In this document: positions 11,169 through 54,661 of the stretch, piece after piece
How positions within the stretch are numbered: position 1 is the first letter of the stretch
Layout: every line of letters begins with the position of its first letter
Assembly: GCA_902786275.1 (NCBI GenBank)
Contig: CADACC010000009.1
Span: forward strand, 1 to 58,537
Direction: 5' to 3'
Source: an uncultured Erysipelotrichaceae bacterium
GTDB lineage: Bacteria > Bacillota_I > Bacilli_A > RF39 > UBA660
Length of the DNA stretch: 58,537 nucleotides
Notes under the pieces: model-generated
What the model saw: only the letters and a program-made list of their open reading frames with translations
The model's database searches: none
What the model was told of the DNA's origin: nothing
Position numbers and translations under genes: made by a program

Positions 11169-12233
11169 ATGTACGAAGAAAAACGATTTATAAAAAGAAA
11201 AATTAATTGGGTTAGTGTTCTTTTAAAACTATTATTATTATTTCTTGTTGTATTCTTAATTTGGTTTTTAATTTTTGGTAGAAAGAATGATAATAAACCT
11301 GCTAAAAAAGGTAAATCAATGGAAGATAATCTTAAGGTATTAAAGAAGGATTCAATCAAGTATTTTGATAAAGATAAATTACCAAAGAATATCGGAGAAG
11401 TTAAAAAAGTTACTTTAGAAGAAATGATTAAAGATAAAGCTACTAAAGAAGTAGTTGATAAAAATGGAAATACTTGTTCAAAAACATCTTCATATTCACA
11501 AGTAACAAAAGTTGATGAAAATAATTACAGTTTAAAAGTTTATATTAAGTGTAAAAATGAAGCTGATTCAATTATTACTAGTATATCAACTGGAAAGAAA
11601 ACTAATAAGAATAATAACACTAACACTAATAATAACAAAACTAATAATAACACTAATAACAATAACAAAACTAACACTAACACAAATACAAGCAATAATA
11701 ATTCAACAAAGAAAACTACTACTACAAATAAAACTACAAACAAAACTACAAAAGAAACTAGTACTGTAAAAATTAGTGGTAATACTAATACAAACAATAA
11801 TACTAATACAACAGTTGCAACTAATAATAATACTAACACTAATACAAATTCTAACAGTAATACAAATACAACTCAAACAACAGAATTTGTTCCAACACAA
11901 CAAAATCTACTTTATACAGAATATGAGTTAGTAAAATATGGTGAATGGACAACTACTAAACCTGAAACTGGTAAATTTAAAACACAAATTTTAAAAGTTG
12001 TAGTTAATAAGTACTGTTATGGAAATGATAATTATAATTGTCATACTATTCCAAAAATGGATAAATACAAAGATGATATAGATTTCTTACTAGCTCAAGG
12101 TTATAGAGAAATATATGATCATACAAACCAAACTTATGTATATTTACCATATGAAACAATCTGGTCTAAAACTAAGGACGTAGATGGTTATACATATACT
12201 GGTAGATATAGAGACGTACATAAAATGAACTAA
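11169..12233 (+). CDS. Membrane-anchored Asn/Thr-rich protein of unknown function
   Basis: A 354-aa protein. A basic N-terminus (KRFIKRK) precedes one membrane helix at residues 15-36, so the remainder is probably outside the cell. Residues 45-140 are a polar domain containing two cysteines. Residues 143-239 are low-complexity sequence made almost only of Asn and Thr with some Lys and Ser, encoded by imperfect repeats of AAT, AAC and ACT triplets. The C-terminal 115 residues (240-354) form a Tyr-rich domain with two more cysteines (NKYCYGN and NYNCHT), which could form a disulfide. The linker may act as a flexible, O-glycosylatable stalk that pushes the domain through the wall (inference). 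I do not recognise the family. Confidence 0.8.
   Translation: MYEEKRFIKRKINWVSVLLKLLLLFLVVFLIWFLIFGRKNDNKPAKKGKSMEDNLKVLKKDSIKYFDKDKLPKNIGEVKKVTLEEMIKDKATKEVVDKNGNTCSKTSSYSQVTKVDENNYSLKVYIKCKNEADSIITSISTGKKTNKNNNTNTNNNKTNNNTNNNNKTNTNTNTSNNNSTKKTTTTNKTTNKTTKETSTVKISGNTNTNNNTNTTVATNNNTNTNTNSNSNTNTTQTTEFVPTQQNLLYTEYELVKYGEWTTTKPETGKFKTQILKVVVNKYCYGNDNYNCHTIPKMDKYKDDIDFLLAQGYREIYDHTNQTYVYLPYETIWSKTKDVDGYTYTGRYRDVHKMN
11590..11880 (+). repeat. Low-complexity Asn/Thr triplet tract inside the coding region
   Basis: Imperfect tandem triplets (AAT, AAC, ACT, ACA) encoding Asn-Thr runs. Such tracts can change in length by replication slippage without shifting frame. The antisense and shifted open frames across this tract are by-products of its composition. 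Confidence 0.8.
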
Positions 12234-12265: not shown

Positions 12266-12298
12266 ATAAAAAAAGAAGTAACTATTAGTTACTTCTTA
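12266..12298 (-). terminator. Rho-independent terminator after pheT
   Basis: Minus-strand AAGAAGTAACT pairs with AGTTACTTCTT around a short loop, then seven Ts. It sits tail to tail with the plus-strand terminator at 12231 and overlaps the restored stop codon of pheT at 12285-12287. Confidence 0.88.
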
Positions 12299-14546
12299 AT
12301 TCTGCATTTAAGCTTTCACAAACTTTATTAATAATATTATTAAATACTTCCATAACTTCTTCATCAGAAAGCGTTCTAGTATCATATCAATACTATCAAG
12401 AAGTCTTCCACCAGCTTTTTTAATAGATTCTTCTAACATCTTATTAGTTACATCATTATCAACAATGAAAGCAACATCTTTTTTAATTGATGGGTATTTA
12501 GAAGCTTCTTTAAACTTAAGTGGTTTAACAGTATAGTTATATAACTTAGTCATAGAAAGTTCACATACATAAATATCATCTTTATAAAGTGTTGGATTTA
12601 TTTTACCTATAATACCAACTGGTTGTCTATCAATTAAGATTGATGCAGATACTCCAGGATGAAGTTCCTAAATACTTAAGTAAATTTTCAACAATACCTT
12701 TAAGTAAATAGAAATCTGTTTTAACGTTAACACTATTTACGGCATTACTTAGATAGTTTCCTGAAATAAGCATTGCTACTTTATGATCTTCTTTATATTC
12801 TTTATCATATGTTTTAGCTATTTCATAAATATTAATATTATCTACTTTTCTAGATTTGTTGTATGTATAAGTTTGAAGTAAAGATGGAAGAATAGATAAT
12901 CTTAAATATCCTTTATCTGATGACATTGGATTTGGAAGTGCTAATACTTCCTTATTATCATTGTTGAACATATTAGCTGTTTTTTCATCATTTAAAGTAT
13001 ATGTTCTAACTTCAGTTAAACCTAAAGTTCTTAATCTTTTAGAAATTGATTTTCTTAAAGCTACGTCACCAACATATACTCCACGTTTAGTTCCAACTTC
13101 TGGAAGAGTATCTTCAAGATTATTGTATCCATATAATCTACCAATTTCCTCAGCTAAATCAGCTTTATTTGGTTCAACATCTAATCTTCTTCTTGGAATA
13201 ACAATTTTGAATGTATCCCCATTTAGTTCATATTTGAAATCTAGTTTATCTAATTGTGCTTCAATATCTTCATTAGTCATACTCATACCAAGAACACCAT
13301 TTAGTTCTATAGCAGTCACACTAATTTCTTTTTCTGTTTTATCAACTTTATCATGAAGAAGTTCTCCTGATAATACTTCACCAGATGCATATTCTTCAAG
13401 TAGTGATAGACATCTATCCATTGCAGCTATAGTATATTCATAATTTAAACCTTTACCATATCTTTTAGATGCTTCTGATTTTAGATTTAATCTTGATGCA
13501 GTTTTAGTAATTGAGAAAGCATCAAAGATAGCTGCTTCAATAAAGATGTTTTTAGTGTTTTCATCAACTTCAGTATTAAGTCCACCCATAACACCAGCAA
13601 TACATGTTGGAGTAGTTCCATCAGTAATTACGATATCATTAGACGTTAAATCTCTTTCTTCATTATCTAAAGTAATAATCTTTTCACCATCTTTAGCATC
13701 TCTTACTAGTACTTTTTTACCAAGTTTATCAGCATCGAAGAAATGAGTTGGTTGTCCATATTCAAGCATTACGAAGTTAGAAATATCAACAACGTTATTA
13801 ATAGGTCTCATACCTGCAGCTGTAATTCTTTTCTTAATCCATTCTGGAGATTCTCCTATTTTTACATTTCTAACCATTCTACCCAAATAATATGGACATT
13901 TTTCAGTTTCAACTTCAAGTGATACATAGTTTTCTACTTTATCACTTGTTTCATTATATTTAGATTCAGGATACTTAACTTTTTTACCAAGTACAGTTCC
14001 TATTTCATGAGCAAAACCAATATGATAATAACAATCATTATTTCTGTGTTTGTGAACATCTAAGTCATATAAAGTATCATCACAACCAAGATATTCCATT
14101 GCATCCATTCCAACAGGTGCATCAGATGGTAATTCTTCAATACCTTTAGCATATGTTTCTTCAGTCTTTTCTTCTAAACCTAGTTCGAATAATGCGCAAA
14201 TCATACCATTAGATTCTTCACCACGAATTTTACCAGCTTTGATTTCAAAGTCACCAGGTAAAATAGCACCAGGTAAAGCAACGATAACTTTAATACCTTT
14301 TCTTACATTAGGTGCTCCGCATACTATTTGAGTAGTTTCTTTTCCAGTATTAACCTTACATACATGTAAGTGGTCTGAATCCGGATGGTCTATACAATCA
14401 ACTACTTCACCAACAACTAAATTATCAATATGATTAGATATTACTGCTTCAACATTAATACCTGCTTTAGTTACTTTAGTAGCTAGTTCTTTTAAATCTT
14501 CACCTTCAAGATCAATGTAATCTTTAACCCAATTAAGTGATATCAT
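12285..14546 (-). pseudogene. pheT: Phenylalanine--tRNA ligase beta subunit, broken by two internal deletions with frameshifts
   Basis: Beta subunit of the PheS2-PheT2 synthetase. The first frame (14546 to about 12666) carries the N-terminal tRNA-binding OB domain, B3/B4, B5 and core regions and reads normally to ENLLKYLGT, then runs out of frame to a TGA at 12630. Conserved sequence resumes in another frame at LHPGVSASILIDRQPVG and continues to GGRLLDSID (about 12390). It resumes a third time, back in the first frame, at DTRTLSDEEV and ends ESLNAELRSN with TAA at 12285-12287. Total length is about 754 codons against roughly 800 in the family, so about 15-18 and 20-25 residues are missing at the two junctions. 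The gene follows pheS by one base. It is either a genuine lesion or an assembly error; an essential function would need another copy. Confidence 0.9.
12376..12387 (-). repeat. 12-mer at the second pheT junction, shared with dnaB
   Basis: The minus strand reads ATATGATACTAG exactly where the pheT frame breaks for the second time. The same 12 bases, followed in both cases by one variable base and AC, lie at the dnaB frame break (54276-54287). I did not notice a third copy when reading the window. Confidence 0.7.
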
Positions 14547-14547
14547 A

Positions 14548-15594
14548 TTAATTTTCCTCCTTTCTATCGAAAGAGCTTGTTTCTCTTAAATCAACATTAT
14601 AGAAAGTTCTAATATCACTGATACCATATTTAAGCATTGCACATCTTTCCGCTCCAAAACCAAATGCGAATCCACTCCATTTTTCTGGGTCATATCCACA
14701 TCCTTTTAAAACATCATAATGTACTACACCAGCCCCACCAATTGTGATCCATCCAGAGTTTTTACAAATATTACATCCTTTACCCTTACAGTTAAAACAT
14801 GAAATATCCATTTCAACAGATGGTTCAGTAAATTGATAATATGATGGCCTAAATCTAGTTACTGTATCTTCACCGAACAATTTCTTACAAATTACTGTAA
14901 CTGTTCCTTTTAAGTCTGATAACTTAATATCTTTATCAACAATTAAACCTTCAATTTGAGTAAATTGATGAGAATGAGTTGCATCATCATCATCTCTTCT
15001 ATATGCTTTACCAGGGCATATAATTCTAACAGGTTCTTTGCCTTCTTTACTAGTCATAACTCTAGCTTGAACTGGGGATGTATGACTTCTAAGTAATAGT
15101 TCATCACCTTTAACATAGAATGTGTCTTGAGCATCTCTTGCAGGATGTCCTTTAGGTAGTCCTAATAATTCGAAGTTATATCTGTCTTCTTCTAGTTCTG
15201 GTCCATCCACAACATCATATCCCATAGACATAAATACTTCTTCAAAGTCTTCAATAACCTTTTCTAATATGCTTGGTGCTCCATTTACTATTTCAGTACC
15301 AGGTAAAGTAATATCAATTGCTTCTTTAGATAATTTTTCATTTAAGATAGCATTATTAATTTCTTCTTCTTTACCTAATATTTTACTTGTTGCGTAGTTC
15401 TTAATTTCATTTGAAAGCATTCCAGCTTCTTTTCTTTCTTCTGGAGATAAGTCTTTCATATTTTTAGTTAGTTCTGTAATACATCCATTTTTACCAATGT
15501 ATTTAGCTTTTATATCAACTATATCTTGAGTAGTCTTAATTGTTTCTAAGTCTTTATCAAGTTCTAGTTTGATTGCTCCTATTTTCTCTTTCAT
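14548..15594 (-). CDS. pheS: Phenylalanine--tRNA ligase alpha subunit
   Basis: Catalytic class II alpha subunit, 348 residues, intact. Motif 2 is recognisable around VRIICPGKAYRRDDDDATHS with the typical HQFTQIEGL, and motif 3 as GFAFGFGAERCAMLKYGI near residues 310-327. A small cysteine cluster (CFNCKGKGCNIC) interrupts the core as in many Firmicutes PheS. The N-terminal 90 residues form the usual coiled-coil arm for tRNA. It is the first gene of the pheST unit, controlled by the T-box leader directly upstream, and is followed by pheT after one base. Confidence 0.98.
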   Translation of the reverse strand: MKEKIGAIKLELDKDLETIKTTQDIVDIKAKYIGKNGCITELTKNMKDLSPEERKEAGMLSNEIKNYATSKILGKEEEINNAILNEKLSKEAIDITLPGTEIVNGAPSILEKVIEDFEEVFMSMGYDVVDGPELEEDRYNFELLGLPKGHPARDAQDTFYVKGDELLLRSHTSPVQARVMTSKEGKEPVRIICPGKAYRRDDDDATHSHQFTQIEGLIVDKDIKLSDLKGTVTVICKKLFGEDTVTRFRPSYYQFTEPSVEMDISCFNCKGKGCNICKNSGWITIGGAGVVHYDVLKGCGYDPEKWSGFAFGFGAERCAMLKYGISDIRTFYNVDLRETSSFDRKEEN

Positions 15595-53445: not shown

Positions 53446-54661
53446 TTATCCTTCGTTATTTGTGTGAACTACATTTCTAAAATTACTCATATTAAGTTCA
53501 AATAATAAATCAATCTTTCCTGTTGCACCTTTTCTATGTTTTGCAATAATTAAATCAACCGGAACAATTGTTTCCTTAATATCTTTTTTAGTATCATAGT
53601 AATCTTTTCTATTAATAAATAGAACCATATCGGCGTCTTGTTCTAGTGAACCAGATTCACGTAAATCTGCAAGCATTGGTTGAGAATTTTCTCTTTTTTC
53701 AGCATTACGTGAAAGCTGAGCTAATGCTATTACTGGAACATTTAGCTCTAAAGCCATTGTTTTAAGAGAACGAGATATCTCGGAAACCTCAACTTGTCTT
53801 GATTCAGTTCTTTTACCACCAGATGTTACAAGTTGTAAATAGTCGATTACAACTAAACCTAATCCTTTTTCAGAATTAGCTAATCTACGACATTTTGCTC
53901 TAATCTCAGATGCTGTTATACCAGCATTATCTTCAATATATATATTTGTATCGGCAAGCTGACTCATAGCTTCGTTATATCTTTTCCAATCATTACTTTG
54001 TAGTTGTCCAGTTTGAAGTTTATATGAATCAATTTGTCCAACAGCAGATATCATTCTATTAACAAGCATTTCAGCTGACATTTCTAAGTTGAATATAGCT
54101 ATTGCTTTATCTGTTGTCATTGCAGCATTGGTTGCGATATTTAATGCAAATGAAGTTTTACCCATACCAGGACGAGCGGCTAAGATAATCATTTCACCAC
54201 CATGAAGTCCAGCAGTATGTCTGTCTAAATCATAAAACCCTGTTTCAAGTCCTGTAACAGTTCTTTTATTTTGTGCTAGTATCATATGCGTCACTTGCAA
54301 TACTTGTTGCAGTATCAATTAAATTACGTCTAACATAATTATCTTTTACTATTTGCATGTAATACTCTAGATTAGATGCTATAGCAACAGAATCTATTAC
54401 ATCAGATAAATAATCTATTCCACCAGATGCACTAAGTTTTTTCTTTTTTTCTAAGTCATCTGATACTGTTGTAATATCAATGGCTATTTTATTTTTATGT
54501 AAGTCACAAACAGATTCAAAAATAGTACGGTTTTTTTCATCAAAAAACATTTCAGGTAATAGTTCTTCACAAACTTTATCTAAAGCATATTCATTTAAAA
54601 AACATATACCTAAAACACTCATCTCAGCATCTAGGTTTTGTGGTAATTTACGTTGTGCCAT
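53446..54661 (-). pseudogene. dnaB: Replicative DNA helicase, broken by an internal deletion and frameshift
   Basis: The first frame (54661 to the TAA at 54266) has the N-terminal helicase domain, from RKLPQNLDAEMSVLG to SIASDAYDTST. The second frame picks up near 54282 at QNKRTVTGLETGFYDLD and continues through Walker A ARPGMGKTS, Walker B VVIDYLQLV, SQLSRNAEKR-type and RESGSLEQDAD motifs to the stop at 53446. The linker of about 40-47 residues that joins the domains in Bacillus DnaC is missing and the frame changes. Total coding length is about 405 codons against roughly 450. The junction contains ATATGATACTAG. It is a real lesion or an assembly error; DnaB is normally essential. A perfect AGGAGG precedes the start. 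Confidence 0.9.
54276..54287 (-). repeat. 12-mer at the dnaB junction, shared with pheT
   Basis: Minus strand reads ATATGATACTAG and is followed by CAC; the pheT copy at 12376-12387 is followed by AAC. It lies just at the break between the dnaB frames. Confidence 0.7.

Follow-up and report, generated by a model that had tools for sequence, protein, structure and literature searches.

Results

Interrupted pheT and dnaB Genes

The window, which is the whole stretch of 58,537 nucleotides analyzed here from the draft genome of an uncultured Erysipelotrichaceae bacterium, carries two genes with interrupted reading frames (table 1). One is pheT, encoding the beta subunit of phenylalanine--tRNA ligase and broken twice; its long part matched the NCBIfam model TIGR00472 over its first 638 aa (E 1.6e-193). 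The other is dnaB, encoding the replicative DNA helicase and broken once. An open reading frame adjoining pheT (11169-12233, plus strand) has a membrane-like N-terminus followed by a long Asn/Thr-rich stretch of low complexity.

The breaks in both genes were checked by alignment and tblastn against intact relatives of the genus. The segments missing here are present in these relatives, and their loss is specific to this assembly. Neither an intact copy of pheT or dnaB nor the missing segments of either gene were found elsewhere in the assembly. In a survey of 80 dnaB loci, 43 of the 45 with a recognized Walker A motif had a long frame upstream and the other 2 were cut by a contig end, the remaining 35 loci not being recognized by the Walker A pattern used. 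Both frames resume immediately past the break, as would be expected if programmed frameshifting or bypassing let the ribosome read pheT and dnaB across it. However, 13, about 22, and 42 residues of the relatives are absent from the DNA, and no decoding event can restore them; recoding is therefore rejected as extremely unlikely.

Table 1. Coordinates of the broken genes, their junctions, and the shared 12-mer (window coordinates unless a locus and contig are given)
Feature	Position	Strand	Remarks
pheT, broken twice	12288..14585	-	Extent of matches to intact relative
First pheT break	12664..12668	-	41 bp missing vs. genus relatives; 2 bp junction homology (GA); without the 12-mer
Second pheT break	12380..12386	-	67 bp missing vs. 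genus relatives; ~2 bp junction homology (AT)
12-mer ATATGATACTAG at second pheT break	12376..12387	-	Join at position 2-4 of the 12-mer, whose right 8-10 bases belong to normal pheT
dnaB, broken once	53446..54661	-	TIGR00665 and NF004384 (NCBIfam) match both halves
dnaB break	54278..54283	-	128 bp missing vs. relatives, between N-terminal and helicase parts; at most ~3 bp junction homology
12-mer ATATGATACTAG at dnaB break	54276..54287	-	Left 7 bases are left flank, right 4-5 are right flank
fusA (EF-G)	L217:3530-3690, contig C15 near 3610		37 bp missing, out of frame
gatB	L220:1750-1910, contig C23 near 1830		71 bp missing, out of frame; 2 bp junction homology
rbgA/ylqF	L155:12120-12275, contig C3 near 52197		22 bp missing, out of frame; 2 bp junction homology
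HerA-like ATPase gene (doubtful)	L151:5880-6080, contig C2 near 5990		Low-complexity, Lys/Glu-rich variable tail; frame change vs. relative

Occurrence of the 12-mer in the Genome and the Family

An earlier reading of the sequence alone had noticed that the same 12-mer, ATATGATACTAG, lies at the second pheT break and at the dnaB break, that one variable base and then AC follow both copies, that there is no third copy, and that the first pheT break lacks it. These observations were all borne out. Exactly two copies occur in the window, on the minus strand, from which pheT and dnaB are also encoded, and both lie at frame breaks; they read ...CTAG-A-AC at one copy and ...CTAG-C-AC at the other. 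Matches with at most two mismatches were at chance level (17, against 13.65 expected). The sequence-only reading had also proposed a count over the full genome, and the exact count over the draft genome (1,099,038 bases, 68 contigs) was 2, so that every exact copy falls at a broken gene. Matches with at most two mismatches were at chance level (17, against 13.65 expected).

In 57 other family members we counted 28 copies, about one for every two genomes, and 5 of these genomes had two. Two copies in one genome are thus not unusual; the only unusual thing is that both lie at breaks. Of 12 copies examined in context in the other genomes, 11 stood in long open frames (1 of the 11 on the other strand), and 8 of these 11 used the phase A-TAT-GAT-ACT-AG, coding for Tyr-Asp-Thr-Arg/Ser. 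Considering these long open frames and the predominant phase, the 12-mer is ordinary coding sequence for AT-rich genomes such as these. Many copies in intact genes had been named beforehand as an observation that would speak against a special role for the sequence; copies in intact genes do occur in the family relatives but not in this genome, which holds no third copy.

Different Registers of the Two Copies

The two copies were compared with the corresponding sequences of undeleted relatives. At the second pheT site, the relative G004 (locus L016) is undeleted and reads GATGATACTAGAAC; the sequence there that corresponds to the right flank of the break is AAAGATGATACTAGAACA, with no deletion. 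Judged by this alignment, GATACTAG at least is normal pheT sequence, and the normal part probably extends to ATGATACTAG. The pheT copy is almost entirely right flank, that is, native sequence coding for Asp-Thr-Arg-Thr-Leu. In dnaB, the relatives show GCATATGATGAAGAA as the left flank and CTTGCACAAAA, or a sequence close to it, as the right flank, and therefore the join lies at about position 7-8 of the 12-mer. Because the position of the join within the 12-mer differs between the two genes, the copies were put together from different flanks.

Further Short Deletions in the Same Genome

About 664 kb of this genome (~60%) was compared, stretch by stretch, with the relative G001. Three further clean, frame-breaking deletions were found in this part, in fusA, gatB, and rbgA/ylqF, and the HerA-like gene is, from its alignment, a possible additional case. 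The protein flanking the fusA junction is 98-100% identical to that of the relative despite the loss of 37 bp, and the sole EF-G gene found in this genome ends at residue 517 of ~692. All of the clean deletions break the frame, lie in conserved core genes, and measure 22-128 bp. In the reverse comparison, G001 showed no such deletion at places where this genome is intact, and none was seen in 80 kb of G004. The sampled sequence had no N bases, an observation that speaks neither for nor against the removal of N gaps as the source of the breaks.

The 12-mer is absent from all four of the other clean junctions (the first pheT break, rbgA, gatB, and fusA) and from the doubtful HerA-like case. With only two exact copies in the draft genome, any junctions in the remaining 40% cannot carry one either. 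Apart from the pair formed by the second pheT break and dnaB, junctions shared only 5-8 bases pairwise. Homology at the joins was 0-3 bp as measured against the relatives' sequence, not the true undeleted sequence; on this measure 5 of the 6 joins had 2 bp or more, versus 20% expected (P ~0.002; by summed length, P ~0.03).

Chance of a Shared 12-mer

Deletion junctions were simulated in this genome's own coding sequence, with windows of 12-20 bases on either side. The probability of a shared 12-mer was 0.0002-0.002 for three junctions and 0.0006-0.006 for five, before allowing for post hoc selection. For a match between 2 of 6 junctions it is roughly 0.001-0.01, which is still unlikely and counts against coincidence. 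Nevertheless, the match was chosen after the fact from the whole window, and as a coincidence it is notable but tolerable. Whether the 12-mer is a scar is settled by the register and by the other junctions rather than by the P-value.

Discussion

No Role for the 12-mer as a Scar or Hotspot

The sequence-only reading had offered three explanations of the shared 12-mer as the mark of one mechanism: a site-specific excision scar, a recombination hotspot, or a joining artefact of the assembler. If ATATGATACTAG were the recognition or residual sequence of such a scar or hotspot, the finding that its only two genomic copies both lie at junctions would be well explained. However, the register of a scar or recognition site would be constant, and here the join falls at 12-mer position 2-4 for pheT but at ~7-8 for dnaB. 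The sequence does not recur at the genome's other deletion sites, four clean junctions having formed without it, and it occurs in long open frames of family genomes. Moreover, 8-10 of the 12 bases of the pheT copy are normal gene sequence, so that most of this copy is ancestral and present in an undeleted relative. In the relatives, the sites hold no element, only stretches of ordinary coding sequence (41, 67, and 128 bp), and these lost gene pieces differ in length. We therefore give almost no credence to a scar or a hotspot. The third explanation survived in part: the breaks themselves are likely to be artefacts, but the 12-mer has no role in them.

Real Deletions or False Joins

Short deletions that truly exist could also account for the breaks, if the lineage, or a minority of cells whose version was assembled, carried broken pheT, dnaB, fusA, gatB, and rbgA. 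The contig is continuous and without N, and 0-3 bp of junction homology is what end-joining or slippage would leave. However, these are all genes of translation and replication without which known bacteria cannot live; searches for a second, intact copy of pheT, dnaB, or EF-G found none; and every clean case breaks the frame. Real deletions are thus quite improbable. A variant of this explanation, to which we assign a very slight probability, would have real deletions recur at very short homologies while the cells survive on intact copies kept in the population or in an unassembled part of the genome.

We consider it highly probable that the pheT and dnaB breaks belong to a set of six or more short, false deletions of 22-128 bp in this draft genome, which was put together from mixed DNA, and that the common 12-mer is a coincidence. 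To our knowledge, no living clone could lack EF-G, PheRS-beta, and DnaB together, and for this reason the breaks, as read from the assembled sequence, most likely arose as artefacts, either in assembly or through library chimeras. The two further expectations of an artefact agree with the data: pheT, dnaB, and the EF-G gene are broken and no intact copy of them was found in the assembly, and such deletions were confined to this assembly in the comparison with G001 and 80 kb of G004. The assembler, a gap closer, or a chimeric library molecule may have joined two nearby ends over a thinly covered stretch. Collapse of long repeats by the assembler was also considered; the joins share only 0-3 bp, which rules it out and agrees with the joining of ends over very small overlaps, as chimeric library molecules or a gap-closing step might produce. 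The shared 12-mer is made up nearly entirely of right flank in pheT and is a composite of left and right flanks in dnaB.

So, a striking sequence common to two gene breaks can be due to chance. Several essential genes of this genome (pheT, dnaB, fusA, gatB, and rbgA) carry breaks that are probably false and should not be taken for pseudogenes, recoding, or recombination scars.

Comparison with Known Systems

The scars left by Xer/dif and by integrases at att sites resemble the present case in the short common sequence that remains at separate places. In contrast to them, the copies here lack a common register, no element was excised, and the bases in common are ancestral sequence of the genes. 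The indel errors of draft metagenome-assembled genomes are a closer likeness in that gaps break the frame of core genes in one assembly only and are absent from relatives, whereas the deletions found here are of 22-128 bp with little homology, for which a simple collapse of long repeats is inadequate. A search of the literature for such an artefact returned nothing specific. Microhomology-induced chimeric reads arising in library preparation have been described from formalin-fixed human tissue, where they gave mostly point changes (PMC8674242); they are alike in being joined in vitro at a few shared bases, but the setting, fixed tissue, is different, and they are a candidate parallel only.
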